From a virus: a DNA stretch of 64,000 nt. Shown here piece after piece: positions 6,212 through 37,370 of this stretch. The notes under the pieces are model-generated. The model did not search any database and was not told the origin of the DNA. It saw only the letters and a program-made list of their open reading frames with translations. The stretch is taken from positions 37,341 through 101,340 of the IMG/VR virus record IMGVR_UViG_3300027573_000021, one strand, 5' to 3'. Position 1 is the first letter of the stretch. Each line of letters begins with the position of its first letter. The position numbers and the translations under genes were made by a program.

Positions 6212-6693
6212 CACTCATATAGATTATTCCTTGCCTCATTGAGTGACCTGAAATGCTGACCAGTTACCACATTGAATACATGCCGGCATTTAGGACATTG
6301 TACCATGTTGGTCTTTTGAAGATGCTTTTCAAACTCCACCCCTATCACATTGGAGAATCTTTTCTTCTCCCACTCTGTCCATCCATATTTCTCAGCCATC
6401 TTCTTAGCCTCTTTAGGTATCATGAAAAAGATGTCAAGTTTTGATAGCTCCTCAAAGATATCCCCTCCATCCCAGTTCTCATTGCAGCAGGGACATCTCC
6501 CACTCCTGTTCACAGGAGCAGCAACAAAGACCTTTTCCTTTACAGGTGTTTCACCCATCATTGCTGCAAATTCCTTTACCTCTGCTTCCATCTCTTCTTC
6601 ATCTCCGGGTATGTCAGGTATATCCTCATAGATATCATCATTCTTACTGAGGTTAAACATCCTGTCAAATTCTTCGCTGTCAAATCTACTCAT
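6211..6693 (-). CDS. Acidic protein with two CxxC pairs
   Basis: This 160-residue protein is the last gene of the minus-strand operon. Its N terminus is strongly acidic. CPCC near residue 88 and CPKC near residue 137 would form one zinc ribbon split by about 45 residues. The ATG overlaps the TGA of the upstream gene (ATGA), indicating translational coupling. The family is not recognised; a nucleic-acid or protein-binding zinc ribbon is plausible. Confidence 0.75.
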   Translation of the reverse strand: MSRFDSEEFDRMFNLSKNDDIYEDIPDIPGDEEEMEAEVKEFAAMMGETPVKEKVFVAAPVNRSGRCPCCNENWDGGDIFEELSKLDIFFMIPKEAKKMAEKYGWTEWEKKRFSNVIGVEFEKHLQKTNMVQCPKCRHVFNVVTGQHFRSLNEARNNLYE

Positions 6694-6884
6694 TGCTTTA
6701 GTTTTTTGAAGTGAGCAATTAAAACAATTTCATGTGAGTACTGGTAGTAGAGTGTAGTATCCTCAGAGTTAATATTAGTGTAGAGAAAAATTGGCCCTCT
6801 TACTGTAGGTCTGCATCTAAGAGCTTTGGATTCCAGCACTACTACTACCCCCTTCTTAGTTACTACCAGGGGTTTTGGTGTCAT
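6690..6884 (-). CDS. Small basic protein of unknown function
   Basis: The stop overlaps the start of the following gene (ATGA), which supports this frame. I chose the ATG at 6884 (64 residues, beginning MTPKPLVV) because a longer start would overlap the upstream gene by about 120 bases. The protein is beta-rich with a basic C terminus. No family is recognised. Confidence 0.55.
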   Translation of the reverse strand: MTPKPLVVTKKGVVVVLESKALRCRPTVRGPIFLYTNINSEDTTLYYQYSHEIVLIAHFKKLKQ

Positions 6885-7155
6885 GTCTCTTCTTTTTTGT
6901 TGGGCAATATACAATTCCTCCGGATACCATAGCCCAATTGCAGTGATTAATGGTGCAGTAAATGACCTCCTCAATGTTATTACTTATCCTTGCAATCTGC
7001 TCCATGATGTCACAGACATACACTGTCTGCTTTCTGCTGGTAAGCTCTGCCATGATAACATCAAGCTGATCAGATAACTCATCAGCCCTCTGTTCAGAGA
7101 TACCTACAGATTCATTATAGCTTCCTGCTGTCCTGTTAATGATGTTCAGTTTCAT
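6856..7155 (-). CDS. Unknown protein, helical
   Basis: Starting at 7155 (MKLNIINRTAG) makes a four-base ATGA overlap with the upstream stop, which is better than a longer start inside the upstream gene. The 99-residue product has a helical middle segment (residues 15-60) and Cys residues around 43, 62 and 78. Function unknown. Confidence 0.65.
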   Translation of the reverse strand: MKLNIINRTAGSYNESVGISEQRADELSDQLDVIMAELTSRKQTVYVCDIMEQIARISNNIEEVIYCTINHCNWAMVSGGIVYCPTKKKRHDTKTPGSN

Positions 7156-7541
7156 GATCTTGAAATTTTTGTTGATGGTTTCCATATAGGTAATCCCAAT
7201 CCTACCTGTGTAATGTAGCCTACTACATACCACTCCTTGCCTCCTTTGTATTCAGCTATGAGCAAGCAGTGATCAGAGGAGATCAGGTTAATGGAAAGTT
7301 GGTGAAAGTTTTTGACTTTTGTGAATTTCTTTACCCATTCAATCCTCAGTAAACTGGCAAGATCACTGAAGTGAGCCACCTTCCTTGTATCCTCATCACC
7401 CTCCACAAAGTCAGGTGTATGCTGTGTGATGATGCTTAGTGCTGAAGAAGGATCATCTCTTTTTGGGTAAGGGTAAGGTCTGATAGGGCCTGCATTGCTC
7501 ATTTTTCTCAGGCTTTCTTTTAATTTGTCCATTGGTGTCAT
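7152..7541 (-). CDS. Unknown protein
   Basis: This 129-residue protein has a Pro-rich basic N-terminal stretch followed by a mixed alpha/beta region. It sits in a chain of short minus genes with 0-4 base spacing, so it is probably one of many small accessory proteins read from a long early transcript. No recognisable motif. Confidence 0.65.
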   Translation of the reverse strand: MTPMDKLKESLRKMSNAGPIRPYPYPKRDDPSSALSIITQHTPDFVEGDEDTRKVAHFSDLASLLRIEWVKKFTKVKNFHQLSINLISSDHCLLIAEYKGGKEWYVVGYITQVGLGLPIWKPSTKISRS

Positions 7542-7543
7542 TG

Positions 7544-7879
7544 TTATTCTTTTTCTTGTGATGAAGGAATGTTTATATCTCCGTTTTCATGTAGCCTGTA
7601 GAGTATAAACTGGCACATGGCTACCATATCTGCCAGTTTAATAGGATCTAGGTGTCCATCATTGAATATTAGTGCCATATCAAGCAGTTGCTTGTCTACT
7701 GGCATTTTAAATCTTTGAATTCCTTCTTGTTGCTGGGGCACATAAGTTGTTATAGCCTCCTGAAGTATTTCACTTGCCCAGATAGTTGAAGGAACAGATT
7801 TATCCTGATAGGCATGATTCCATGTGGTGTCAATCAGGTGGAATATGAATTCCTTGTTGATGTCATTGAGATCAGTCAT
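7544..7879 (-). CDS. Unknown helical protein
   Basis: The 111-residue product is mainly helical by composition, with several Trp and aromatic residues. The upstream gene's TGA overlaps this ATG (ATGA at 7876-7879). Nothing identifies a function. Confidence 0.65.
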   Translation of the reverse strand: MTDLNDINKEFIFHLIDTTWNHAYQDKSVPSTIWASEILQEAITTYVPQQQEGIQRFKMPVDKQLLDMALIFNDGHLDPIKLADMVAMCQFILYRLHENGDINIPSSQEKE

Positions 7880-8196
7880 ATAGGTGTTTTAAGTTTTATT
7901 TCACGAATTTTCTCAATTGCTTTTACGAGGTCATTCAGAAAGTTTTGCAATATTATAGCTTGTTCTTCACGGGTCATTTTATTCCATCTTTGTCTCCCGT
8001 AATCTTCAATCATATATTTTTCAATCCACCGCATAACGGTACTATTTAAATTATTAATTGTTGTTTCATCTCCCTTGTATGGGGTGGATTCGGATTCAAT
8101 TAATTGCATTATTTTTTCAGCACCAATAGGCTCACCATCTGGTACATACATTTTCATATACTCCACTATCTGCTTTTTAATCTCATCTCTGGTCAT
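7876..8196 (-). CDS. Unknown protein
   Basis: This 106-residue protein has an N-terminal helical segment, a basic middle (RWIEKYMIEDYGRQRW) and a helical Lys-rich end. It is separated by 11 bases from the upstream gene. It shares a short YKGD/YKGG stretch with the product of 8208-8561, perhaps by chance. Confidence 0.65.
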   Translation of the reverse strand: MTRDEIKKQIVEYMKMYVPDGEPIGAEKIMQLIESESTPYKGDETTINNLNSTVMRWIEKYMIEDYGRQRWNKMTREEQAIILQNFLNDLVKAIEKIREIKLKTPI

Positions 8197-8207
8197 TGTT
8201 ATTATTT

Positions 8208-8561
8208 TTAAGTGATGGGGGTTAGCTTTGCTTCTAATTCTGCAATTTTATTTCTTGCCGCTTGACCCTCTTTGGCTAATTTACTTCTCCAACCATGTGC
8301 ATGAGCTATCCCGAAAACATCATCCAATTCATCTGATAGGATTTTTATGTATTCATTTTTAGCTTCAACCAGTGCCATCCAATCCCCTCCCTTGTATGCA
8401 GGGGCGGCAGCAAAAAGGCCAGCTAATTTTTTAGACAACTCCAAAAACTCACCCCTATGAATAGTCATTTTATCCTTTTCATTCGCCCATTCAAAAAGGG
8501 CATCACAAATATCAAGTGCCGGATAGTCATCCATCTGTTGTTTAACTGAGTCTTTATTCAT
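8208..8561 (-). CDS. Unknown helical protein
   Basis: The 117-residue product has a hydrophobic Ala-rich segment (GLFAAAPAY, about residues 48-56) and a C-terminal heptad-like helix (residues 95-115). It may oligomerise. There is a two-base gap to the upstream gene. Not recognised. Confidence 0.65.
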   Translation of the reverse strand: MNKDSVKQQMDDYPALDICDALFEWANEKDKMTIHRGEFLELSKKLAGLFAAAPAYKGGDWMALVEAKNEYIKILSDELDDVFGIAHAHGWRSKLAKEGQAARNKIAELEAKLTPIT

Positions 8562-8563
8562 GG

Positions 8564-8776
8564 TTATTGTTTTTCAAAGATGGCAATAATTGTTTCAGTC
8601 AGTGTATTATTATGAATAGTGGTGCTTAGCTTCCATTCCTTCAAGCTATACCCTCTCTCATCATTCACATTGATGACCTTCTCAAACTTCTGGCTTAGTA
8701 AGTCACTGATAGGTGTTCCCGGTATCCAGGTTTTGCTGACCTCTGCTACAATGAATTTTGGTATTGTGTCACTCAT
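8564..8776 (-). CDS. Small unknown protein
   Basis: This 70-residue protein overlaps the upstream gene by eight bases and belongs to the same chain of short genes. It is mostly beta-type sequence ending in a helical Glu/Lys segment. Function unknown. Confidence 0.6.
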   Translation of the reverse strand: MSDTIPKFIVAEVSKTWIPGTPISDLLSQKFEKVINVNDERGYSLKEWKLSTTIHNNTLTETIIAIFEKQ

Positions 8777-9044
8777 GGTTAGTTTTTTTTATTAGTTGTG
8801 TAATGTGTATTGCAGCTTTCATCATTACTTGATAGGCTCCGGCATCAGTGGATTTTATATCCTCTAACTCCTGTGGTGTCAGGGGAATTAAATTCAAGTC
8901 CTCATCAAACTTGGATAATGTAGCACAGTAAAGACAAATAGATAGGTCTCCGGGTCTGGGTACAGCATCAGTATCAAGGGATTTATGCGCATCCTGTAAC
9001 TTTTTACAGGTAGTGCAATATTTTGGTTCAGTTCTGGTAATCAT
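8769..9044 (-). CDS. Small zinc-ribbon-like protein
   Basis: CTTCKK near residue 10 and CLYC near residue 37 form two CxxC pairs 24 residues apart, the layout of a small zinc ribbon. The rest of the 91-residue protein is helical. An intergenic gap of 61 bases separates it from the lipoprotein gene downstream. The zinc site is inferred from cysteine spacing only. Confidence 0.65.
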   Translation of the reverse strand: MITRTEPKYCTTCKKLQDAHKSLDTDAVPRPGDLSICLYCATLSKFDEDLNLIPLTPQELEDIKSTDAGAYQVMMKAAIHITQLIKKTNHE

Positions 9045-9105
9045 AATTGATCTTTTTTATTATAATAGCCCCAACCATACAGGTTGAGGCTATAAAATTT
9101 ATTGA

Positions 9106-9651
9106 TTAAGGGTTTGGTATAAAAAGGGAGAAATGACCATCAGTTAATACTCTGTCATTAAAGCCATTTGCTCCAAATATGATTCTGAAAGTTCCGGTAA
9201 TCACTTCACCATCTTTTCTTTTCTTCACTTTCCTGATTATGAAAATGCCTTCTCTGGAAGGTGGGTGAATAACAAATGTAAAATTATATGATGCAGTAGT
9301 AGTAGAGACCACTGGATTACCCCACCCATCAGGAGAGCCAATTAGGAAAATACCTTTCTTACCTCTATAACCATCAATGCGCAAAGTTAAACTTTCTACA
9401 TATTGTACAGCAGAGTTAATCACCCTTGATCCACGAATGGTTAATAAATCTCCAATGCGTTCAATGGTAAAAGTTTCTGCATTGACAAGCTGTCCATTAA
9501 TTATAAAGGACAAACTATTGTCATGAGCTTTAACTTTGTTTGACGTTAATTGTTCTGACTCTGATTTGGTAGGTTTTGGTTCTTCAAGGACATCCTTTTT
9601 ACAACTTACAAGTAATGTAAGGGCAATGAGAGGCAATAAAACTTTACGCAT
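9106..9651 (-). CDS. Predicted lipoprotein
   Basis: The N terminus (MRKVLLPLIALTLLVSCKKD) is a typical lipoprotein signal with lipobox LVSC, cleaved before Cys17. The mature 165 residues begin with a charged, disordered linker and continue as beta-rich sequence. The protein would be anchored to the host envelope. Lipoproteins made early by phages often block superinfection or receptor use; here that is only a possibility. The gene opens a cluster with three other signal-peptide or membrane proteins. Confidence 0.75.
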   Translation of the reverse strand: MRKVLLPLIALTLLVSCKKDVLEEPKPTKSESEQLTSNKVKAHDNSLSFIINGQLVNAETFTIERIGDLLTIRGSRVINSAVQYVESLTLRIDGYRGKKGIFLIGSPDGWGNPVVSTTTASYNFTFVIHPPSREGIFIIRKVKKRKDGEVITGTFRIIFGANGFNDRVLTDGHFSLFIPNP

Positions 9652-9694
9652 ATATATCTGAGTATATTTAGCGTGTTCTCCAGCACGTTTTTGG

Positions 9695-10647: not shown

Positions 10648-10926
10648 TTATTCCTTGAGCTTCTTTGACAGGAACTCCTCTGCATCATTGGCAATGTCCT
10701 TCTTGGGTGACTGGTGATACTGCAATGCAAAGTCAGCTAACCAGACATATAAATCATCCCTGTTTATTGTAGGGGCATCATCACTATCACCCAATGGGAT
10801 GTTATCCCTGATAAGCTGCCATTTCACATGAGCCTCAGTCTGTGCATCAGTGATATCAGGATCACAGGGAGACTTCTCAATGAAGTCTTCAGCAGCCAAA
10901 CATCTTTGTTTCCAGTATTTGTTCAT
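10648..10926 (-). CDS. Unknown helical protein
   Basis: This 92-residue acidic protein contains mostly helical sequence and two cysteines (residues 9 and 20). Its start lies 38 bases inside the upstream gene. No motif identifies its function. Confidence 0.6.
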   Translation of the reverse strand: MNKYWKQRCLAAEDFIEKSPCDPDITDAQTEAHVKWQLIRDNIPLGDSDDAPTINRDDLYVWLADFALQYHQSPKKDIANDAEEFLSKKLKE

Positions 10927-11182
10927 GGTAAATGGCTGGGAGTTTAAATATATTATATAACCAATATTGGTAAAGGTCTTTTGGAGAGTAAAGAGTAGCT
11001 GTAAATCCTGTTGTAGGATAATACTCTCTTTCCTTAGTTATCTCTGTCTCCAATCTATATACTAACTCACCTTTAGTGTTCCAGAGATACCTTGTATTAA
11101 GAGTAGTCCATATACCAAACTTAACAGGTAAACCTACTGCTTCCTTTGGATTATTTTTAATCCATTCTTCTAACTTGTTCAT
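10889..11182 (-). CDS. Unknown protein
   Basis: The 97-residue product begins with a short helix and continues with Tyr/Trp-rich beta-type sequence. The start overlaps the upstream stop by four bases. Not recognised. Confidence 0.6.
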   Translation of the reverse strand: MNKLEEWIKNNPKEAVGLPVKFGIWTTLNTRYLWNTKGELVYRLETEITKEREYYPTTGFTATLYSPKDLYQYWLYNIFKLPAIYHEQILETKMFGC

Positions 11183-11448
11183 AACTTTAAAATTTTATTT
11201 CTTAACTTATTGTTTTCATGTCTCAGGTCATTAAACTTTCCCCGCCAAAAGGTAACTTCATTCTTAAGAGCCTTGATCCTTTCAATAGAAGATTTCCATA
11301 TCTTATAATAAGAGCCATCACCTTTAGTCAACCACAGGTTATAGTAAGAATGGAGTAATGACTTTGCAGTTTCCAAATCTATCAATGAGCATTTTGGACT
11401 ATGACCTTTTAAGGCACTGCATTCTGGACACCTGACTTCTGTACTCAT
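11179..11448 (-). CDS. Small zinc-finger/coiled-coil protein
   Basis: CPEC (residues 8-11) and a third Cys at residue 20 near a His suggest an N-terminal zinc finger. Residues 55-88 form a Lys/Asn/Leu-rich coiled coil, so it may dimerise. ATGA overlap with the MazG-like gene upstream couples the two. Confidence 0.65.
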   Translation of the reverse strand: MSTEVRCPECSALKGHSPKCSLIDLETAKSLLHSYYNLWLTKGDGSYYKIWKSSIERIKALKNEVTFWRGKFNDLRHENNKLRNKILKL

Positions 11449-12005
11449 AGCTGTGGGGTTTCAGGGTGAATAAAATCCTTTGGGTTAAGCTTTCCATGAA
11501 GTAATTCAAGAACCTTCCTTTCAGCTTCCAGATCCCTGTTCAGAGCCTTGTCAGCATCAAACTTATCAGGGTATCTTACTTTCAGCTTATTGATATTAGC
11601 AGCAAGGATTTCTCCCAGATCAAGACCATAGCTACAAGCAATAGTGTAGACAACATTCAGCAGGTAATACTCCTTCTTTGAATCTGTCAGGGTCATGTAA
11701 GTCCTAAAGCAAAATAAGATGTCCATCACCTTGATTTTACCTTCACAGACCAGTCTTGGAACAAGGGGAGCTGACATACTTCCCAATGACAGCTTATTGA
11801 CTGTGTACCAGCAGATATCAGCAAGCTCCTCTCCCAGGTTTACAGTGTCAACAGGCTTGTTATAGGCCAGTTCTTTTTTAAAGATGTCCATGAGTTCACC
11901 TATCTCTGTCATGATACCCATATCCATGTGCATAATGTTCTTGTAGTTGTCACCAAGATCAGGTCTGGTTCTGCTGGCTAAAATTTGATATTCAATTAAT
12001 TTCAT
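11445..12005 (-). CDS. MazG-like nucleotide pyrophosphohydrolase
   Basis: The start at 12005 (MKLIEYQIL) leaves a 14-base overlap with the upstream gene. Residues 34-37 (EIGE) and 60-63 (ELAD) reproduce the ExxE...ExxD metal-binding pattern of the all-alpha NTP pyrophosphatase fold (MazG/dUTPase-like). The N-terminal RTRPDLGDNYKN region is also typical. Such enzymes hydrolyse NTPs or dNTPs, or lower alarmone levels, and are common in phage nucleotide modules. Its neighbourhood (GroES-like, ThyX, dNMP kinase) fits nucleotide metabolism. The substrate cannot be read from the sequence. Confidence 0.75.
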   Translation of the reverse strand: MKLIEYQILASRTRPDLGDNYKNIMHMDMGIMTEIGELMDIFKKELAYNKPVDTVNLGEELADICWYTVNKLSLGSMSAPLVPRLVCEGKIKVMDILFCFRTYMTLTDSKKEYYLLNVVYTIACSYGLDLGEILAANINKLKVRYPDKFDADKALNRDLEAERKVLELLHGKLNPKDFIHPETPQL

Positions 12006-18034: not shown

Positions 18035-19174
18035 TTAGATATTTACAGTGTACTCAAAAAATTGATCCATGAACACTACTCCATTGGTTTCAGCAAACCT
18101 GTTCTCCAAAGAGAATTCATGTCTCCTCCACAGGTTGTATCTTGCCATAGCCTGATTCCATCCCATGAGCTTCTTACCATCACCACTGACTCCCTGTGTC
18201 ATCATGTCATCAGTCATGACAAATACCATAGGAGTTCCCGGATACTTGGTGGACTCACACAGAAAAGCAAAACTTGCCATCCTGTAGCCCTCAATGTCCT
18301 TACCAATGAGATTGGAGATAGTGGCAAGGTTCTTCCATATTCCATAATTATAGAAGCTACCCTGAATATCATATCTTCTTGCCCTGAGAGCTAAGATGAA
18401 TGACAGGATATCCCCTCCATGAGTTTTGAAATCAAATGGATATACCTTTCTTGCATTATGATCTATCCTCATCATGTCAGGTAGTATCTTACAGGCTACT
18501 CCTTCATAGTCAAAAAATAATGGCATCTGGTAAACAATATCTACTCCTGCCTCTTCAAGGAAAAACCTGGAGGTGTGAGGATGGTTCCTGAGACTCCCTG
18601 CTGTTCTTGTGACTACATCCCCTTCTTCCTCTGACAATATTATCTTGCCATAATTCTCTACTAACTCTTCAAAATAATCTGAACCTCCATTCTTAGCCAC
18701 TGTCAACCACCTGTTATCCTCTTCCCAGATAGGGGCTGCTCTCTTCATGTAATAACCTATCTCCACTTTTCCATCCCTCATGATCTCCACTGTATTACAG
18801 GCTTCATAGATCAAATCCCTGTACTGGTCAAAGCCATCCATCTTATTTACCTCCCCATCTTTTCTTATCAATGCCCATTCAAATACTTTCCTTGTAATAC
18901 TCAACACTGCTCCACTTGGAGTAGTAGCTGAACTGGAGAAGTGATAGCAATGCTGGAATTCATCATCTCCATGTGATAACATGAAATCAACTGCCTTACC
19001 TATCTTGAAATACTCCTTCTCTGTGTACCACTCCTCCTCTCTTAGTGCTTCTTCTTTCTTACGGAGAAAGGCTTGAATTCCTTCCTGTGCAATGATCTTT
19101 AACCCTGATTGATTCATTCTTGGGTCAGCATGATAGCTGGCCACCTGAGCTTCTGTGTGTCTGAATGTTGACAT
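18035..19174 (-). CDS. PD-(D/E)XK nuclease (RecB/RecE-like exonuclease)
   Basis: The core of the 379-residue protein reads ILPDMMRID followed by YPFDFKTHGG, giving the D...DxK triad of the PD-(D/E)XK fold. The following RRYDIQGSFY helix carries the Q-containing motif typical of RecB/Cas4/lambda-exonuclease-like proteins. A related nuclease is standard in crAss-like phages. It probably resects DNA ends in recombination-linked replication. The overlap with the RusA-like gene upstream supports joint action on recombination intermediates. Confidence 0.8.
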   Translation of the reverse strand: MSTFRHTEAQVASYHADPRMNQSGLKIIAQEGIQAFLRKKEEALREEEWYTEKEYFKIGKAVDFMLSHGDDEFQHCYHFSSSATTPSGAVLSITRKVFEWALIRKDGEVNKMDGFDQYRDLIYEACNTVEIMRDGKVEIGYYMKRAAPIWEEDNRWLTVAKNGGSDYFEELVENYGKIILSEEEGDVVTRTAGSLRNHPHTSRFFLEEAGVDIVYQMPLFFDYEGVACKILPDMMRIDHNARKVYPFDFKTHGGDILSFILALRARRYDIQGSFYNYGIWKNLATISNLIGKDIEGYRMASFAFLCESTKYPGTPMVFVMTDDMMTQGVSGDGKKLMGWNQAMARYNLWRRHEFSLENRFAETNGVVFMDQFFEYTVNI

Positions 19175-19574
19175 AATGAATTGGTTTTGTCTTTAAAATT
19201 TTGATTTTGACTCCGGGAAAGTGCTTATCCAGCACATAGTCTCCGTAATAGGGTTTGAGATTGTCAGCATCATCATCTTGTAACCATCCATGTTCTACCA
19301 TTGTATCAGTGACAATTTGTGAGGCATTAGTATAATCAAATCTTCTCCTGCTATCCCTGTAGAAAGTGAACTCAATATAATAAGGAGCAGGTAAACCATA
19401 CAACTGAGATATGAATCTCAACCTTTGATCTACCCACTCCTGTTTTGTAACCCTGATCCACCTTGCTGCTACTTTGGAATAGACAAGGAATTTGCCAGTC
19501 CACACCTTGCTGTTCTTACTGGAAGGTGTATTACTGCTTATCCAAAACTCATCTTCTCCTAGTATTAGCTCCAT
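19125..19574 (-). CDS. RusA-like Holliday junction resolvase
   Basis: I prefer the start at 19574 (MELILGEDEF), giving 149 residues with a 26-base overlap with the upstream gene. The segment RRRFDYTNASQIVTDTMVE followed by GWLQDDD is the RusA signature, whose clustered Asp residues bind Mg2+. RusA-type enzymes cut four-way junctions; here it would resolve branched phage DNA before packaging. The C terminus overlaps the start of the exonuclease gene. Confidence 0.8.
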   Translation of the reverse strand: MELILGEDEFWISSNTPSSKNSKVWTGKFLVYSKVAARWIRVTKQEWVDQRLRFISQLYGLPAPYYIEFTFYRDSRRRFDYTNASQIVTDTMVEHGWLQDDDADNLKPYYGDYVLDKHFPGVKIKILKTKPIHYVNIQTHRSSGGQLSC

Positions 19575-20307
19575 AGATTTCTTTTTTAAAGTGTTCACTT
19601 AAAATACTGTTCATCTTATTGGCATAATCCAGTGATTGCTGAATAGTCAGGAACTTGGGTGGCTTGAAGGACTTATCATTGAAGAGAACTGACATGATAT
19701 TATTGGTATAGACCATATCAATCTTATCAGCTATCTTCTCAATGAAGAGCTTGTTCACATTCCTGTACACCTTGAAATGCTCTGCATCATTAATGAAATC
19801 ATTATTAATAACAAGAGCAAACTTACTCAGGTCTCTCTCCTTTGGAGCAATGTCAAACAGGTACTTATGCTTCACAGCCATCATCATCATGGGCACTGTG
19901 GGATTACTCCTGAAGATGATTGTGCCTTTATTAGCTACATAATCAGAACCAGCACTGCTATGCCTGTACCTGCACCAATAATGCTCCCTTGGCCTCATAT
20001 CAAGGCGCAGGGCTTCACAGAATTCATTGTACTTGTGACTCTGAAGCTGTGAACCCGGCACATGAAACTTATAGATCAGGACTTTGTGATCCCCCCTCCT
20101 CACTAACTCACCCTCTGAGAGAGAATGAATTGGAATATACTCATTGTCTGAAGACAGGGAGGTACAAATCCTGTTAGTCCCACCAGATTGCTCAGTGCTT
20201 ACTACCTGATCTGATGTAGGAATCCTCATCTCTGTGAACACTATGACAGGCTCTATGACTGCTGTGGGAGTTGCTTGTGTTGCTGTAATTGGTTGTACTG
20301 TGTCCAT
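19549..20307 (-). CDS. Unknown protein adjoining the ubiquitin-like cassette
   Basis: The 252-residue protein follows the ThiF/E1-like gene after 11 bases, so it probably belongs to the same transcript. Residues 1-45 are Thr/Pro-rich and disordered. The middle contains HYWCRYRHSS and an IIFRSNPTVPMMMMAV strand-rich stretch, and the end is basic. I recognise no domain. It could be a target, adaptor or fifth component of the cassette; position is the only evidence. Confidence 0.6.
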   Translation of the reverse strand: MDTVQPITATQATPTAVIEPVIVFTEMRIPTSDQVVSTEQSGGTNRICTSLSSDNEYIPIHSLSEGELVRRGDHKVLIYKFHVPGSQLQSHKYNEFCEALRLDMRPREHYWCRYRHSSAGSDYVANKGTIIFRSNPTVPMMMMAVKHKYLFDIAPKERDLSKFALVINNDFINDAEHFKVYRNVNKLFIEKIADKIDMVYTNNIMSVLFNDKSFKPPKFLTIQQSLDYANKMNSILSEHFKKEIYGANTRRR

Positions 20308-20318
20308 AGTGTTTCATT

Positions 20319-21026
20319 TTAGCTGACAATTAATAAATCCATTGGAGTAAAATATGTCCACTCAAAAGGAACTGTCCTCTCACTTGTATTATTTGCTACA
20401 TTGGTCATGTGATTGGTGAGAAATCCTATGATATGAGAGGCAATCATGGCTGCTGAATGAGAGGTTTGCTTTGCAGTACATGGCTCATCTATCAACTCTG
20501 AATCATCAAAGAGCAGCCCTTTATATGCATCCTGCTTACCCTTACTCTTTCTTCCTCCGGGGACACAATAAATCCACATCTGTTCAGCATTAAGTCTTCC
20601 ATCAATGAACAGGGCTGTGGCATCATTGCTGTATATCTTCATCCAGTTCTCAAACATGGCCTTTCTTGCCTTCATGTTATCAAAGGCAGAAATACAGATG
20701 GCATTAGTAGGACTATCCTCATCCATCATCTCACAATAATTCATGAGAGTAATACTTGCAAACTCTTCTACTACTTCATAGAGGGCATCTGTCTTATGCT
20801 TCTTTACCTGCCTTCTCTTATATAACTGCCCTCCCAGGTTATGCTCTTCTATCTCATCTGCATCATAAACCATTAGCTTGAATCCAGCCCTTGCTGCTAA
20901 CAGGGCTGTCCATGAACCTATGCCTCCTGCTCCTCCTATAAGCACATAGGTTGTACTTGCAAGGTTATACCAAGGCAAATCCTTGAACCTGCTGTGTTGA
21001 GGTGGTACATTAACTATCTGTTCCAT
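20319..21026 (-). CDS. ThiF/E1-like ubiquitin-activating enzyme
   Basis: The 235-residue protein has the E1 Rossmann ATP-binding motif GGAGGIGS (31-38), then DADEIEEHNL (55-64) with the usual Asp and Asn, Gln67, basic residues 75-78, and ISAFDN (113-117) with Asp116 for MgATP. Cys183 in EPCTAKQTSHS sits where MoeB/ThiF/E1 proteins carry the catalytic cysteine before a long helix. It is short, with only the adenylation domain. It would adenylate and perhaps thioester-link the C-terminal Gly of a ubiquitin-like protein. It sits two bases after the JAMM gene. Confidence 0.88.
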   Translation of the reverse strand: MEQIVNVPPQHSRFKDLPWYNLASTTYVLIGGAGGIGSWTALLAARAGFKLMVYDADEIEEHNLGGQLYKRRQVKKHKTDALYEVVEEFASITLMNYCEMMDEDSPTNAICISAFDNMKARKAMFENWMKIYSNDATALFIDGRLNAEQMWIYCVPGGRKSKGKQDAYKGLLFDDSELIDEPCTAKQTSHSAAMIASHIIGFLTNHMTNVANNTSERTVPFEWTYFTPMDLLIVS

Positions 21027-21028
21027 AA

Positions 21029-22309
21029 TTAAGATATTAATTCTTTGTTTTGTAATGTGTATTCAAATCTGTTTCCTAATAGTGTGAGCTTGTGAATTAA
21101 GTCTGTAATGAATGGATAGTTTCTTTCATCCACTTCTTCATAGAGCCTTATCACCTCTCCTAATGTATCCAAGAACATTTCATCTCCATGATACTTTGGT
21201 AACTTAGCAAAGAAGTTGGCATGATAGACTCCATAGTTGCTGACAATGACATCTACCACAGCATCATTGTTGATATTGGCATAATCCAGATCACCCAATG
21301 CTTCTTCAATAGTATCCTGTTCCACTTCATTGCCCAGTCTTATTAAACATGCAGCAAATTCTTCTTCAATAGTTGGGATATCTGAGAGGTCTTTTGTCTC
21401 ATCCACATCCATCTTCTCCTCCACAGGCTTCTTGCCCCATTTATCCATGATAAACTGGTTATCCAAATAGTTTTCCTTGGATGATTTTTTTGAGGGATCG
21501 TAATCTGGAAATGGATCTTTTTTTTTCCCATCCCAATACTTTGCTGGCTTACCTGTTGGAGGATATTGTGCTGGCAGTGGATAACCACCAGTACCAGTGC
21601 TGATACCAGCAGGATGATTCTTTTTCCACTGTTCTGCTGCTTTCTCAGCCTTGTGAGTACTGGCTTCCATGACCAGCTTCATTCTTGTATCAAACTCCTC
21701 TGCTACAGTTACAGTATGCACACTGGTGAACACCTCACAATCATAGACCAGCATCTTAACTTCAGGATGCTCAGACTTCACCCTTATCACATAGTCCTTG
21801 CCATTCTCATCCTTACAGGTATAGTTCTCAGCCTGAATACCAGTGAAGGCTATCTTAGCCTTGATGTCCATGAAATTATTGACAATGACTGACAGATAAT
21901 AATTGTGCAGGGGGCAGTTATCATTCAGCTCCTCCCAATCTGTACCAGAGAAGAACACCTGCATGGTATTATGAGAATGGATATGACCAATCTTATAGTC
22001 AATGGTCTCCATGTGGTTCATCCTGTACTCCACTATAGTCTCATCCCAATCAAATGCAGTAGCTCCTCCAGTCCCCTTATCCATGAGATAGAGGTCTTTG
22101 ACTATGATCTTTATCTTTTCTGTCTTTTGGATACTACCCTCTACTGCATAGAATAATACCCCACTCCACTCCTCCTTTGGCATGTTCTTGCATAAATACT
22201 TTATCTTGTCCATGACATCATCAGGTATATGCAAGGGAATTGAGTTTGTCAATTCCAACTTGTCTAGTTTTAATGATGTTGGCTTTGGCTTCCAGTTCTG
22301 TTCTGACAT
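21029..22309 (-). CDS. JAMM/MPN+ metalloprotease-domain protein (deubiquitinase-like)
   Basis: Residues 25-170 form an MPN domain. Glu48 lies in KEEWSGVLFY, and H111-x-H113-x7-S121-x2-D124 matches the JAMM zinc motif H-x-H-x7-S-x2-D exactly. Catalysis is therefore likely. Residues 225-305 are Pro/Lys-rich and probably disordered; residues 310-426 form an acidic helical domain. JAMM proteins process ubiquitin-like precursors or remove the modifier. The gene starts 89 bases inside the E2-like gene and ends two bases before the E1-like gene. It resembles PRTRC protein A-type JAB proteins in context. Confidence 0.88.
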   Translation of the reverse strand: MSEQNWKPKPTSLKLDKLELTNSIPLHIPDDVMDKIKYLCKNMPKEEWSGVLFYAVEGSIQKTEKIKIIVKDLYLMDKGTGGATAFDWDETIVEYRMNHMETIDYKIGHIHSHNTMQVFFSGTDWEELNDNCPLHNYYLSVIVNNFMDIKAKIAFTGIQAENYTCKDENGKDYVIRVKSEHPEVKMLVYDCEVFTSVHTVTVAEEFDTRMKLVMEASTHKAEKAAEQWKKNHPAGISTGTGGYPLPAQYPPTGKPAKYWDGKKKDPFPDYDPSKKSSKENYLDNQFIMDKWGKKPVEEKMDVDETKDLSDIPTIEEEFAACLIRLGNEVEQDTIEEALGDLDYANINNDAVVDVIVSNYGVYHANFFAKLPKYHGDEMFLDTLGEVIRLYEEVDERNYPFITDLIHKLTLLGNRFEYTLQNKELIS

Positions 22310-23399
22310 AATCTTTTATTGATTGGTTAATAAATTGTTTCCTTACAATGCTTTCATCCTCCTGTTCTGGTAGGGGGATTACTTTGAAGACTATCCTTTC
22401 TCCCCTGAATGGCATCCATGTAGTAGTGGGAGCTAATAATTGTGGAGATACTCTTGCCTTCTTGTACCATGAGCCATCTGTGTCCCTGAAAAAATAAATG
22501 CTTGGGTCAGTTTCTTCCAGCACCCTTAACATATCATCAAATTTCTCATCATTGACAATGGAATACACTCCTCTTGACAGCTTCCAGTTGATATCTATGT
22601 CCCTGCCTCTGGCAATATGCTCTCCTATTATCCTGTTGAAATAAGACCTTAACAAAGCAGGACTGGTGATAGCATCATATCTGGTATCCTTCAGGGCTAT
22701 CTCTTCCAGCCTCTTATAAGGAGTGCCTTCAATGCTCTCCCATTCAGCAAAGGTCTTGAACTGCATCAGCATCAGCCTGAACATATTGGCATCATATCCT
22801 GTATTGAGTACCATCCTGTTGATATCAATATCCTGTCCTGAACCTGTGCAGAAATTACCATAATCACATTGATCATCAGGGCCAAGGAAAGAATAACTAC
22901 CCAAGTGACTATGCCTGTAGCCTGATACAGCTTCAGCAGTGGTGACAGTGGCTCTTGAACCTTGGATAGTATCAAAGGTCAGCCTTGCAGGATGAACCAT
23001 TAAATCCACTGGCATCCTGATGAATAAATCCCTGATGATGTGCTTGTAGTTCTTTGAATTAGTTATGGGGATTAACGGGAAACGAACTACAATATACATC
23101 TTATGGATTTCAAATTTCTTAAATAGAAAAAAGTCCCTTGCATGATTGCTGCCATAGCTATTGGTGTGATGCCTGAAAGTGGGCTGTAATTCAAAGTGAA
23201 TATCTCCATTGCCGGGATACAGCTCTTCCAGTATAGCCCATGCCTCCTTGTAAAACCTTATCTGGAAGGGCTTCAACCTGAATTTGAGTATCATGTCATC
23301 AATCTTGGCAGGGTTAGCCTTCAGGGAAAATAACTTGGACATTGCCACTGCCCTCCTTATGACATAGGCTCTGTACTCTGATGAATCTTGTGGTATCAT
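22221..23399 (-). CDS. E2-like (Prok-E2/PRTRC-B-type) conjugating protein candidate
   Basis: The 392-residue protein has a central block with HPARLTFD (136-143), SGYRHSHLGS (159-168) and GNFCTGSG (181-188). Conserved His residues followed by an FCxG-type Cys (Cys184) fit the active-site layout of divergent prokaryotic E2-like proteins found with ThiF and JAB genes. The order ubiquitin-like, this gene, JAB, ThiF is what supports the call. The N terminus is helical and the C terminus charged. It overlaps the JAMM gene by 89 bases. Confidence is limited because the fold is inferred from motifs and context. Confidence 0.55.
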   Translation of the reverse strand: MIPQDSSEYRAYVIRRAVAMSKLFSLKANPAKIDDMILKFRLKPFQIRFYKEAWAILEELYPGNGDIHFELQPTFRHHTNSYGSNHARDFFLFKKFEIHKMYIVVRFPLIPITNSKNYKHIIRDLFIRMPVDLMVHPARLTFDTIQGSRATVTTAEAVSGYRHSHLGSYSFLGPDDQCDYGNFCTGSGQDIDINRMVLNTGYDANMFRLMLMQFKTFAEWESIEGTPYKRLEEIALKDTRYDAITSPALLRSYFNRIIGEHIARGRDIDINWKLSRGVYSIVNDEKFDDMLRVLEETDPSIYFFRDTDGSWYKKARVSPQLLAPTTTWMPFRGERIVFKVIPLPEQEDESIVRKQFINQSIKDYVRTELEAKANIIKTRQVGIDKLNSLAYT

Positions 23400-23426
23400 G
23401 GCTTAACAAATTAAAATTTTAAAAAT

Positions 23427-23461
23427 AGGAGCTACCATATCATTACTAATAGGTAGCCCCT
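23427..23461 (-). terminator. Intrinsic terminator between ubiquitin-like and E2-like genes
   Basis: AGGAGCTACC (23427-23436) pairs with GGTAGCCCCT (23452-23461) with one mismatch. On the minus strand it is followed by a T-rich run. It may reduce transcription of the E2/JAMM/E1 genes relative to the ubiquitin-like gene upstream. Confidence 0.6.
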
Positions 23462-23491
23462 GTCATTATCCGAAAATCCCAGGTCATAGTC

Positions 23492-24286
23492 CTACATCAT
23501 ACCAGCAAACAGGTCTTTAGCTTCTTTAGCTAACCTGTCTTTCTCCTCTCTTTCAGCCTTGTCCCTGTCCTCCTTCTCCTGTTTCAGCCTCTTTGTCTCA
23601 GCTACTTCAGCATCCACTCTTGCTTTAGCTGATGCTTCTTCAGGAGATGGCCCTTTGATAGTTGCTACTACTTCCTCCTGACCATGCTTCAAGCCTAACA
23701 GCAACTCCACCATCAAATCAATCTTCTCATCTGTGGTCAAACCCTGTAACAGAGCCAAGGTCTCTACCTTATCTCCATTCTTTACAGATTTGCCCACTGA
23801 TTTTACCACATCACTGATGGCTTCAGCTTTGCTGACACTGGCCTTTGCTTTTGTTCCCGGAGAATACTTCTCCAATAATGCTTCAAGGTCAGCAGAGGAC
23901 ACCCTTGTGTAATTCTGACCATTGACAGTAAAGAAGTCCCTTGCCCTTTCTCCATCCTTTTCAATCAGGGTTTTGATCCTTTCATAAATCTCCCCCCTAC
24001 TGAGTCCTCCTGACTTACTCTTCACTGGCATCATGAATAAAAAGAAGTTTTCCCTTGGCACCACAGCATCCTTATGCTCAAAGCTGTGCCTGTTGGTACT
24101 CTCCACACATTTCATGTGGTCAGTGTCAAATCCCTTCTGATCAAGGATTTTCTTCAGTTCACTCCAAGTTGAACCTGAAAAGGAGATTTCTGTCTTTTCC
24201 CCTCTGGTACTAACAGTAGTGATGATCCTGCTGTTAGAAGAACCTGCTGTCTGTGTGGCTGTGCCACCTGATTGTTGTTCACTCAT
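23492..24286 (-). CDS. Ubiquitin-like beta-grasp domain fused to a helical tail
   Basis: After a disordered Ser/Gly/Thr-rich start, residues 20-88 have the beta-grasp order: two strands (IITTVSTR, TEISFSG), a helix (WSELKKILDQKG), strands, and a last strand FFLFMMPV. This is followed by KSKSGG with Gly93-Gly94. Residues 95-160 are a helical region; residues 230-260 are a charged coiled coil. The arrangement resembles PRTRC protein C-type ubiquitin-like proteins but is much longer (264 residues). If the JAMM protein cut after the Gly-Gly pair it would yield a modifier with a GG end. That processing is inference. Confidence 0.6.
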   Translation of the reverse strand: MSEQQSGGTATQTAGSSNSRIITTVSTRGEKTEISFSGSTWSELKKILDQKGFDTDHMKCVESTNRHSFEHKDAVVPRENFFLFMMPVKSKSGGLSRGEIYERIKTLIEKDGERARDFFTVNGQNYTRVSSADLEALLEKYSPGTKAKASVSKAEAISDVVKSVGKSVKNGDKVETLALLQGLTTDEKIDLMVELLLGLKHGQEEVVATIKGPSPEEASAKARVDAEVAETKRLKQEKEDRDKAEREEKDRLAKEAKDLFAGMM

Positions 24287-24300
24287 TTTTGTTTGGATTT

Positions 24301-25041
24301 TTACCAGTTAATAATTGTGTTACCTTTAATTTTCAATAAACTATTACATAATTTAAAATGATTGCATCCTGAAAACTTATACTTGCTGTCAGGATATGCT
24401 TCTGCTGCTGGATGATTCCCTTCAAGGATAAAATTAAGTTCATGAGCTGTACTGGTGACAGTAGATGTATCTGTACCAATATTAACCTTGTTGGGAATAT
24501 AGTCTTTAAATGCCTTGGCCTTTGATCCCCATAACACCCACACAGGTTTTACCTGAAGCCCTATTATCTTTATTACCTCTCTGGTAAACCACTGCCAGAT
24601 ACCCATGTGAGAACCACTGTCCCTGAAGGCTACTGTCAATGCTGCATTCAATAAGAATACTCCCTGTGCCTCCCAATGAAGAAGAGACTGCCAGCTCTCC
24701 TGAAATTTTGTATCAGGATATGACCTGCTTACTTCTCCCTTAATGATCTGTAGTGAAGGAGTGATCTTATATCCACCCTTAACAGCAAAGGCCAGCCCTG
24801 TAGCTTCTCCATTGATATAGGGGTCTTGTCCCAGTATGACTACTTTGATCTCCTGCATTGGCATTCTGAAGACCTTGAATACATCCTCGCTATTAGGACA
24901 GAATGGAGTTCTTGGAATAATATCCCTGTTCATGATCTCCATCTTCTTGTCTTCAAATAAGGGTTGCAGATATTCATGCCATGATTCATGGATGATGGAA
25001 GGCAGTTCTGCCTTTTTTGACTCTGGGTTTTGGTTGCTCAT
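24301..25041 (-). CDS. ung: Uracil-DNA glycosylase (UNG family)
   Basis: Residues 71-75 (GQDPY) are the water-activating motif of family 1 uracil-DNA glycosylases, with a following GLAFAV strand and VFLLNAALTV. The minor-groove loop, usually HPSPLS, reads NHPAAEAY near residue 212; the His-Pro is kept but the rest differs. UNG excises uracil from DNA and is a common gene of crAss-like replication modules. Length (246) is normal. The N-terminal coding overlaps the next small upstream gene by 56 bases. Confidence 0.85.
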   Translation of the reverse strand: MSNQNPESKKAELPSIIHESWHEYLQPLFEDKKMEIMNRDIIPRTPFCPNSEDVFKVFRMPMQEIKVVILGQDPYINGEATGLAFAVKGGYKITPSLQIIKGEVSRSYPDTKFQESWQSLLHWEAQGVFLLNAALTVAFRDSGSHMGIWQWFTREVIKIIGLQVKPVWVLWGSKAKAFKDYIPNKVNIGTDTSTVTSTAHELNFILEGNHPAAEAYPDSKYKFSGCNHFKLCNSLLKIKGNTIINW

Positions 25042-25216
25042 CTTCAGATTGTTTTATCAAGTAATAAAATAGCTCCTTTGCAGATGGAGCATACTTTCCA
25101 ATCTTTCTTTGTTCTTCTACAAATCTTTCATACACTGGCATCAATGTGTTAATAGGATATAATGGTTTCTTCGCAAATAAATCTTCATTTCCCATTTCCA
25201 CTTTCATAAATTCCAA
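24986..25216 (-). CDS. Small unknown protein between primase and UNG
   Basis: The ORF gives up to 76 residues; Met4 or Met8 could also start it. It overlaps both neighbours (32 and 56 bases). The sequence is helical with a Lys/Arg-rich C terminus. It may be a small replication accessory protein, on position only. Confidence 0.5.
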   Translation of the reverse strand: MEFMKVEMGNEDLFAKKPLYPINTLMPVYERFVEEQRKIGKYAPSAKELFYYLIKQSEDEQPKPRVKKGRTAFHHP

Positions 25217-26228
25217 TTTGTTTTAATACGGTGAATAAATCTTGTTTACCTTCCTTGTTAATGAATTCCCCTGGGTCTTTCCATGTTAATTTTCTTGAAA
25301 TAAATACTGGTAAATGAACCATCCTACAGCACCCTTGTCTGATAGAATTAAAAATATCACATAGCTTCATGGCTGCTATTATCCCATCCACATCATTGTC
25401 ATAGAAGATGGTGATGAGCTTAAATCTCTGTGTGAGGTTCACTAATATCTCCCTCTCTGGCACACAGCCTTCACTCTGAAACCATATCACATTCAATCCC
25501 CACTCCAAATTCCTTAAGACCCTATGATCCTTGTAGCTCTTCTGGATGATCAACTCCTCACCACTGGGAGGCAGGTTATCAAAGTTGCCAATATTATTCT
25601 CATCACAATTAGTAATGAACCTGTACTTGATACTGTAGGGCTGATAGAACTTCTTCCTGTCAACAAAATCAAATACATAACAATACTGGTATATGTTAAT
25701 CTGCTTGAGCTTTCCATCCTTTAAAACAGTAAACCTCCTGACAGCATAGGAATTATCTGAAAGGAGGTGTTCAGGCTTGATAAGGAACTGTGACCAGTGA
25801 ATAATGTCAGCTCTTGAAAATGGCTTTGATTCATACTCCATTGGCATAAAGGACTTCTCCATCCTATCATACTTTACTATTCCCTCTTCACTATAGTCAC
25901 TTTTACAAATGGACAAATTAAATTCCTTGCATAGTAGTCTTATTGCCCCATGCATGGTGACATTGAACTTATCCATGACCATCCTGAATGCACTTCTGTG
26001 AGTTTTATTGGGGTGGAGGAACTTCTCTCCAAAGTCTACAAATACTATAGTCCCATCAGGTCTCTGTTCAAACCTGCAATCTGGCCTCTTATCTTCTCTG
26101 AATGGAGATAGGTATCTATCATTGAAATCAAACTGCTTCTTTAGCACAAATTCAAATATCTGCTGCTGTGTTATCTTCTGTAGTATCTGATCAGGGGTTA
26201 ATTCAATAAGACCTTCATAGCCATACAT
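25185..26228 (-). CDS. DnaG-like DNA primase (TOPRIM)
   Basis: The 347-residue protein opens with a segment equivalent to the DnaG N-terminal region (LSPFREDKRPDCRFE and later FVDFGEK), but without the Cys/His residues of the zinc-binding domain. The TOPRIM Glu is probably within EELIIQKSYKD, and TIFYDNDVDG near residue 280 is the acidic TOPRIM motif. It makes RNA primers for the phage polymerase. The position next to the DnaB-like helicase and polymerase matches a crAss-like replication module. Confidence 0.8.
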   Translation of the reverse strand: MYGYEGLIELTPDQILQKITQQQIFEFVLKKQFDFNDRYLSPFREDKRPDCRFEQRPDGTIVFVDFGEKFLHPNKTHRSAFRMVMDKFNVTMHGAIRLLCKEFNLSICKSDYSEEGIVKYDRMEKSFMPMEYESKPFSRADIIHWSQFLIKPEHLLSDNSYAVRRFTVLKDGKLKQINIYQYCYVFDFVDRKKFYQPYSIKYRFITNCDENNIGNFDNLPPSGEELIIQKSYKDHRVLRNLEWGLNVIWFQSEGCVPEREILVNLTQRFKLITIFYDNDVDGIIAAMKLCDIFNSIRQGCCRMVHLPVFISRKLTWKDPGEFINKEGKQDLFTVLKQIGIYESGNGK

Positions 26229-26248
26229 AGTTTAGAGATTTAAAAGAA

Positions 26249-26328
26249 CAATAGGTGAGTCCTTTCTTGAGTTTCTCAACCAAGAGCCACGTAGCTTCTC
26301 TTTGTTAGCTACCCTCCCTCACCTATTG
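26249..26328 (-). terminator. Three-way-junction terminator-like element
   Basis: CAATAGGTGAG (26249-26259) pairs perfectly with CTCACCTATTG (26318-26328). Inside are two further hairpins, TTGAG/CTCAA and GTAGC/GCTAC. A TTCTTTT run follows on the minus strand. It separates the candidate SSB gene from the primase gene. Confidence 0.6.
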
Positions 26329-26336
26329 AACTAATT

Positions 26337-27134
26337 TTACCACGCAGATTTCTGAGCTGAACCTGCAGCTTGAGTAGCTGCTGCTGCATTTGCTGATGCT
26401 GCATCAGTACCATTAACTGCACCACCAACTCTCTGTTGACGAGCAAAGTTACTTGTCATGAACCAGCCATTTTTAACAAATGGATGTTCTTCACCTTTCT
26501 CATTAACATACCACAGAGCTTTCTTTGTCTGTTCTGTGATTACACCTTCTGCTCTTTTCTCTACCCATGTCCCTGGCTGTGCAGGTCTCAACCATGCACC
26601 ATACTTCATCTTTCTTGGAATCTCCAGATAAGTTCTTTCCTGTCCTTCACTCATCTGCCATTGAAACTGCAGGAAGATGTCAAGGTTAATCTCCTTGTAG
26701 TTCTTGGGCAGCATTGACATTACTATCTGGCAGAATTCCTTGAAGCTGGAAATGGGCCTTGCCAAACCTGCTTGGATAGCTTCACTCTCCATAAAGGCAT
26801 GAAGGATATGGGTCACCCTTGCATTGAAATCCTGCATGGCATCCTTAAATTCTGCTGAATTAGGGTCAATGGTCTCCCCTTTATTATCAGGCAGGAATGC
26901 CTTGGTCACAGGAAACATCCTGTAGTTCTTCTCCACTTTGTTGATGACAAAAGTCACATCCAGAGCTTCCTGTTCAGCTCCACTTGCCCCACCATTGGGA
27001 ATCCATTCAAACTTTATGAGATTGGTTACACCAAAGTTTCCTCCAAAATTAAATGGACTGATTTTCACTTCATCTGTCTGGTAACCATACCCCGCTGGGG
27101 CAGTGGTTCCTGTTGGTAATTGCTGATCACTCAT
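26337..27134 (-). CDS. Possible single-stranded DNA-binding protein
   Basis: The 265-residue protein has a Gly/Pro-rich start, a folded middle (residues 20-225) and an Ala/Thr/Gln-rich disordered tail ending in Trp. A folded DNA-binding core with a flexible tail, encoded between primase and helicase, is what phage SSBs look like, but I see no clear OB-fold signature and the tail is not acidic. The neighbouring 27189-27590 protein also has an Ala-rich tail ending in Trp. The call is mainly positional. Confidence 0.4.
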   Translation of the reverse strand: MSDQQLPTGTTAPAGYGYQTDEVKISPFNFGGNFGVTNLIKFEWIPNGGASGAEQEALDVTFVINKVEKNYRMFPVTKAFLPDNKGETIDPNSAEFKDAMQDFNARVTHILHAFMESEAIQAGLARPISSFKEFCQIVMSMLPKNYKEINLDIFLQFQWQMSEGQERTYLEIPRKMKYGAWLRPAQPGTWVEKRAEGVITEQTKKALWYVNEKGEEHPFVKNGWFMTSNFARQQRVGGAVNGTDAASANAAAATQAAGSAQKSAW

Positions 27135-27188
27135 CATTAATACGTATTAAAAATTAAAAATTACGATGTTTGTTTTACTGTCTTGATC

Positions 27189-37335: not shown

Positions 37336-37370
37336 TTGATTGATTTTGTAATAAGTAATTTAAAAAAAAA

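Follow-up and report, generated by a model that had tools for sequence, protein, structure and literature searches.

A putative ubiquitin-like conjugation cassette in the replication operon of crAss-like phages

Why would a virus need to tag proteins? Known bacterial systems for the conjugation of ubiquitin-like proteins (Ubls) defend their hosts or ride on plasmids, whereas here four putative parts of such a system are embedded in the replication operon of a large phage lineage. The locus lies in a stretch of 64,000 nucleotides, hereafter the window, that is part of a virus record of 101,340 bases (IMG/VR IMGVR_UViG_3300027573_000021, positions 37,341 to 101,340). Within the window, positions 19549-24286 of the minus strand encode a beta-grasp Ubl, an E2-like protein, a JAMM peptidase, a ThiF-type E1 enzyme and a fifth protein. 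The five open reading frames (ORFs) are co-directional and located where a preliminary description of this DNA, made from the sequence alone, had placed them. We consider it probable that the cassette is a phage-encoded, working Ubl conjugation pathway. Its features are the following:

23492..24286, minus strand: Ubl precursor, 264 amino acids (aa); AlphaFold2 (AF2) beta-grasp, Foldseek, invariant Gly93
24005..24010, minus strand: Gly93-Gly94 codons of the Ubl, with the predicted cut after Gly93; translation, Ubl alignment
22221..23399, minus strand: E2-like protein, 392 aa; AF2 topology, invariant His and Cys
22221..22309, minus strand: overlap of the E2 and JAB frames, 89 nt, +1; ORF coordinates
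21029..22309, minus strand: JAMM/JAB metallopeptidase, 426 aa; Prok-JAB 1.5e-3, PRTRC_A profile
20319..21026, minus strand: E1/ThiF-like adenylating enzyme, 235 aa; Pfam ThiF, PRTRC ThiF profile
19549..20307, minus strand: fifth syntenic protein, 252 aa; homologous family downstream of E1

The arrangement is not peculiar to this phage. Relatives of the E1 were found in 80 phage records; querying viral sequences with the single E1 gave no match, and when the E1 alignment served as the query against IMG/VR, 251 contigs were obtained and 80 of them retained. Searched with a profile for each of the four proteins, the window and 82 related loci (individual loci are denoted by L and a number) show Ubl-E2-JAB-E1 in that order and on a single strand. 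The loss of synteny that the preliminary description had named as a refutation is thus not seen in related phages, nor did structure prediction give the wrong folds that it had named alongside. Genes are broken in only three of the 82 loci, namely, a split JAMM gene in L002 and L059 and a broken E2 frame in L021, where the E2-like (7595-8857) and fifth-protein (10672-11521) frames are each in two pieces, through either sequencing error or decay. The Ubl is absent at the contig end in four loci besides the 82 (L008, L055, L062 and L069), and L007 has only the E1 of the four profiled proteins. Every phage that has the E2 gene also has the JAMM gene. With this order in 82 loci and the catalytic residues present in all 52-59 non-redundant sequences, the recurrence of the observation is far beyond chance. 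Existing annotations label the cassette genes thiamine biosynthesis, metalloprotease or hypothetical, including those of the cultured crAss001, which carries the cassette as gp79-gp75 (gp76, “thiamine biosynthesis protein, ThiF”; gp77, “metalloprotease”; gp78, gp79 and gp75, hypothetical); Flavobacterium phages carry it as well. No paper joining crAssphage with ThiF was found in the open-licence literature, and earlier recognition elsewhere is possible; the cassette terms are absent from the Crassvirales papers searchable under open licence, and gp76-gp79 go unmentioned in the paper on the crAss001 structure.

The Ubl consists of a beta-grasp domain (approximately residues 20-87), a conserved K-S-Gly93 tail and a 171-residue, mainly helical extension. 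The AF2 model, with a beta-beta-alpha-beta-beta topology and a mean predicted local distance difference test score (pLDDT) of 85.5, is a confident beta-grasp, and Foldseek matches it to ubiquitin, UBX and UBL domains in the PDB with a probability of 1.00 and TMt of 0.6-0.68, albeit with E values of only 2e-3 to 2e-2. The preliminary description had proposed a Ubl with a Gly-Gly pair; the fold stands, but the pair does not, given that Gly93 is present in 59 of 59 Ubls, whereas the next residue is free (Gly94 in 6 of 59). Modifiers with a single Gly are known to work: in the cyclic-oligonucleotide-based anti-phage signaling system (CBASS), cGAS depends on its C-terminal Gly, one such residue is enough, and Cap3 cuts after it (PMC10097602). 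From 1 to 221 residues, never 0, follow Gly93 (1-5 in 7 of the 59 Ubls, with tails such as KSGE, KSGI and KSGK, and 64-221 in the rest). Because all 59 have at least one residue beyond this Gly, each Ubl is synthesized in precursor form and would have to be trimmed, and the model is that of a beta-grasp modifier with a predicted conserved C-terminal Gly after trimming. The extension may persist as a separate peptide after the cut. In the window (residues 95-264) and in relatives, it includes a conserved helical segment, NYT...DL..LL, as well as an acidic helix whose end is aromatic (ARELGY, AKMFG, ELGEGF).

The candidate enzyme for this trimming is the JAMM protein, in which the motif H111-x-H113-x7-S121-x2-D124 is exact, as described previously, and in which E47, H111, H113, S121 and D124 are invariant (58 of 58), so that the complete E, H-x-H, S, D set is in place. 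The profile of this family matches PRTRC_A (94.7%, 6e-8; 91-95% across comparisons). In the Flavobacterium phage Fpv1 (L002, 6716-9008), an insertion separates VGH from IHSH in the JAMM gene, exactly at the H-x-H codons of the metal-binding motif; it is likely a group I intron (Rfam E 2.5e-9 and 43.4 bits, under the gathering score of 50), with a LAGLIDADG gene on the opposite strand. The gene is uninterrupted in L010, a relative of Fpv1, and split at the same metal-binding motif in L059 (7645-9960). Genes that are conserved and needed are the preferred sites of homing elements, and this position fits with a JAMM activity that is needed. The +1 overlap of the E2 and JAMM genes spans 11-287 nt in most relatives (L001-L087). 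An E2-JAMM fusion by programmed frameshift, which the long overlap in the first seven phages suggested, was rejected as a requirement given the 4-nt overlaps or gaps in a few others.

The E1 is recognized by Pfam ThiF (3.2e-14), and its profile matches that of the PRTRC ThiF over nearly the full length (99.1%, 5e-19). It contains GxGGxGS, D55/D57, N63, K78, D116 and Cys183 (in PCT), the last invariant in 52 of 52 sequences; the nucleotide fold and the invariant Cys expected of an E1 are present. The ATP motifs had been described as intact; most are, and the candidate Cys is there, but in 50 of 52 sequences N-x-x-R-Q has Gly66 in place of its Arg. The best PDB sequence match is UBA5 (7.5e-13), the E1 of UFM1, a modifier with a single Gly that is exposed by trimming; this pathway, like the other eukaryotic E1-E2 pathways, differs in being eukaryotic and in that the maturation protease is a cysteine protease, not a JAMM peptidase.

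The weakest link is the E2 identity of the 392-aa protein, for which the predicted topology and the invariant His and Cys argue. The HSH (163-165) and FCTGSG (183-188) blocks noted in the preliminary description are present, the latter with the candidate catalytic Cys184; H165, C184, G186, S222 and G225 are found in 59 of 59 sequences, and H163 in 49 of 59. The AF2 model (mean pLDDT 85.9) comprises a helix, a four-strand meander, HSH, Cys184 and two helices, and because these elements follow the order typical of E2, we consider the predicted topology E2-like. The weak Foldseek matches of this model include inner-kinetochore chains labelled O, which carry RWD domains. Searches of phylum samples gave no E2 material.

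The relative order of the four genes is shared with the PRTRC system (operon type 6d, Iyer et al. 2006, PMC1779556; NCBIfam models), for which we sampled plasmid operons and 80 further loci with a PRTRC-type ThiF from IMG/VR contigs. The plasmid operons read parB-E-C(Ubl)-F-B(E2)-A(JAMM)-ThiF, some without A; thus, as had been suggested, the phage order equals C-F-B-A-ThiF minus F. The two systems further share homologous E1 and JAMM proteins, location on mobile elements, and a Ubl tail with one conserved Gly, which in PRTRC ends in K-G, naked or extended. In 76 PRTRC operons, the Ubl extension and the JAMM gene are both present in 35, both missing in 38, with JAMM only in 3 and the extension only in 0 (Fisher value of 9e-18, with the reference column two residues off and uncorrected for descent); each changes four times on the ThiF tree. 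The comparison offers a testable rule, namely, that a JAMM gene is retained wherever the Ubl has to be trimmed, and it supports, rather than proves, the view that JAMM acts mainly in Ubl maturation, both in PRTRC and, by analogy, in the phage cassette. Many of the PRTRC operons of L093-L180 are in approximately 40-kb IMG/VR contigs that may be prophages.

By the curated cut-offs, the phage cassette is PRTRC-like but not a PRTRC member: the ThiF protein scores 40.3 bits against the required 144.75 (TIGR03736), and the JAMM protein 12.8 against 101.8 (PRTRC_A, TIGR03735), so that membership by sequence was rejected. PRTRC also differs in having the extra genes F, E and ParB, for which a scan of the 10 proteins encoded in 18035-27137 gave no match; in an E2 that is recognized (Prok-E2_D, 1.9e-25); in an E1 that retains the Arg lost from the phage E1; and in that half of the operons examined have no JAMM. 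PRTRC F is unlike the phage fifth protein or E2 in profile comparison.

Several observations weigh against reading the cassette as a conjugation pathway. In none of the 59 members does the E2-like protein have a relevant Pfam or NCBIfam match, and the Foldseek search with its model, for all the E2-like topology, gave no significant PDB fold match. The phage Ubl, also without an NCBIfam match, shows no profile similarity to PRTRC_C, and the E2-like protein none that is significant to PRTRC_B (hhalign), with only the Cys motif aligning. No E3 and no target were seen. Three independent PRTRC pairs agree in 2.5 cases on average, and never in the opposite direction, but are too few for significance. 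Finally, tblastn did not find the E1 in several other Crassvirales that match by the head protein; the cassette is therefore lineage-restricted and not essential to the whole order.

What the pathway might act on is suggested by its setting. On one side are uracil-DNA glycosylase and primase and on the other are RusA and exonuclease VIII:

25185..26228, minus strand: DNA primase; phrog_12622 1.5e-45
24301..25041, minus strand: uracil-DNA glycosylase; ung 7e-43
19125..19598, minus strand: RusA-like resolvase; phrog_1682 1.3e-13
18035..19174, minus strand: exonuclease VIII-like; phrog_412 1.6e-24

The placement in a replication operon, already proposed, holds across relatives: primase is upstream of the cassette in 79 of the 80 loci with a primase match, helicase is upstream in 72 of the 73 with a helicase match, and exonuclease is downstream in 61 of the 62 with an exonuclease match. 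The source phage is crAss-like, as first thought, a relative of the commonest viruses in the human gut, with its crAss-type portal, terminase and major head protein matching the corresponding PHROG families, and its nearest kin are the Flavobacterium phages Fpv, not the gut prototypes (the head protein is 64.5% identical to those of FpV4/Fpv2, with weaker matches to crAss001 and p-crAssphage). A crAss-type head protein was found in 18 of 19 cassette genomes, and because some of these are only about 25% identical to that of the window, the cassette has been maintained for a long time.

We propose the following course of events. The JAMM peptidase would cut the Ubl precursor after Gly93 (K-S-G|x), the E1 would adenylate the freed Gly and take the Ubl as a thioester on Cys183, and the E2-like protein would accept it on Cys184 and, with no recognizable E3, attach it to lysine residues in one partner or a small number of them; JAMM might also release the conjugates. 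Such a pathway could act as a SUMO-like regulator of phage replication. We advance only tentatively the broader proposal that a virus lineage, including the cultured crAss001 and the Flavobacterium Fpv group, runs a complete SUMO-like pathway of maturation, activation, conjugation and release within its core replication machinery, with an obligatory-precursor Ubl regulating phage DNA replication or recombination proteins. With somewhat more reserve still, we would guess from the replication setting that the most likely targets are phage DNA replication or recombination proteins, or host proteins met there. Core conservation in the replication operon favors a replication-linked over an accessory role.

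The same conservation bears on counter-defense, in which the pathway would tag, inactivate or strip a defense protein of the host, for example in CBASS, with its Cap2/cGAS conjugation, or in Bil, with its tagging of virions. Phages are indeed targeted by bacterial conjugation systems (PMC10097602), conjugates could be undone by a phage JAMM, and host-directed tagging is conceivable; however, most counter-defense genes are sporadic, unlike this syntenic core of a replication operon with its long vertical maintenance, and the four parts are kept together, whereas JAMM alone would do for deconjugation. We therefore regard counter-defense as unlikely. The defense systems themselves are only partly similar. 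CBASS Cap2/Cap3 also combines E1/E2 with JAMM and depends on an essential C-terminal Gly, but its E1 and E2 are fused, its modifier is cGAS, and it defends the host. Bil operons (BilA-BilB-BilC-BilD) encode Ubl, E2, JAMM and E1, the four parts in the order of the phage cassette, but make up a bacterial anti-phage system; with the PADLOC models, the phage E1 reached only E 0.0099 against BilD, beside generic E1-E2/JAB models, and the cassette does not qualify as Bil.

A sulfur-carrier pathway, in which the Ubl, trimmed by JAMM and activated by ThiF, would resemble ThiS/MoaD and serve a nucleotide, tRNA or cofactor as thiocarboxylate donor, with the 392-aa protein as the sulfur acceptor enzyme and not as an E2, would account for a small E1 that scores with the ThiF/MoeB families and has no separate Cys domain, for the single conserved Gly and for the JAMM, for which a role in trimming bacterial sulfur carriers has been predicted (PMC1779556). 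It sits poorly with the predicted E2-like topology and invariant His and Cys of the 392-aa protein and with an order shared with PRTRC, where an E2 is recognized, and the flanking proteins scanned included no sulfurtransferase, rhodanese, thiamine or molybdopterin gene; we find this pathway distinctly improbable. We attach just as little credence to the idea that the phages took up a PRTRC cassette from a plasmid or conjugative element and carry it as cargo. The common order, the homology of E1 and JAMM, and the single-Gly tails, extended or not, would be explained, but not the scores far under the curated cut-offs, the missing ParB, E and F partners among the flanking proteins scanned, the Ubl and E2 that cannot be aligned to PRTRC_C and PRTRC_B, or the near-universal rather than sporadic presence of the cassette in the lineage. 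Least probable of all is a non-covalent or still fused Ubl, with the JAMM and E2-like proteins serving as structural scaffolds around the E1 and replication proteins, because, although most Ubls carry a long helical extension and no database match confirms the E2, the catalytic residues of JAMM, E1 and E2 and Gly93 are all invariant, and phages with short Ubls ending 1 residue past the Gly keep the other three genes.

With its natural short Ubl variants, the probable conjugation cassette is a tractable four-gene system in which to ask why a virus needs protein tagging. Phage-encoded Ubl domains together with a JAMM peptidase have been described in lambda/T1 tail assembly (TAPI-TAPK; PMC1779556), but there without E1 or E2 and in a tail assembly locus. 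A cellular origin of the phage cassette was rejected: an E1 search across genomes from 84,980 species of bacteria and archaea recovered only two crAss-like fragments in metagenome-assembled genomes (MAGs) and two distant E1s, and the E1 in this form was confined to the two contigs, which have crAss-like flanks. These fragments, L089 and L090, which contain the cassette or its E1, belong to MAG bins with the labels Clostridium sp. and Spirochaetia.

The fifth protein, which had been suspected of being a further part, is indeed a syntenic partner of the E1: in 59 of 88 loci, a member of its fast-evolving family immediately follows the E1, in most cases at -4 to +3 nt relative to the E1 stop. It has no Pfam or PHROG match and may be an adaptor, a regulator or a substrate. 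A periplasmic binding protein fold, indicated by a single odd PDB match (3e-5 over 56 positions), is not trusted, and PRTRC_F was rejected, there being no profile match. Some members of the family (L010, 10672-11760; L025, 10690-11583; L054, L015 and others), not including that of the window, end in an acidic stretch and DLPF, resembling the tail of single-stranded DNA-binding protein (SSB).

Elsewhere in the window, a 1527-aa ORF (1536-6119) has no PHROG match at E 1e-3. In the jumbo Xanthomonas phage PhiXhv-16 (L007, 229 kb; 6280-8958 and 8971-9654), a ThiF/E1 adjoins an 892-aa protein with Cys-rich ends and an E2-like stretch, IHPHMAVPSSQESHGSLCLGS, and no recognized JAMM or Ubl beside it; this is perhaps a second phage E1-E2 pair. 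Erwinia phage Ep032 holds an E1 similar to that of PhiXhv-16.

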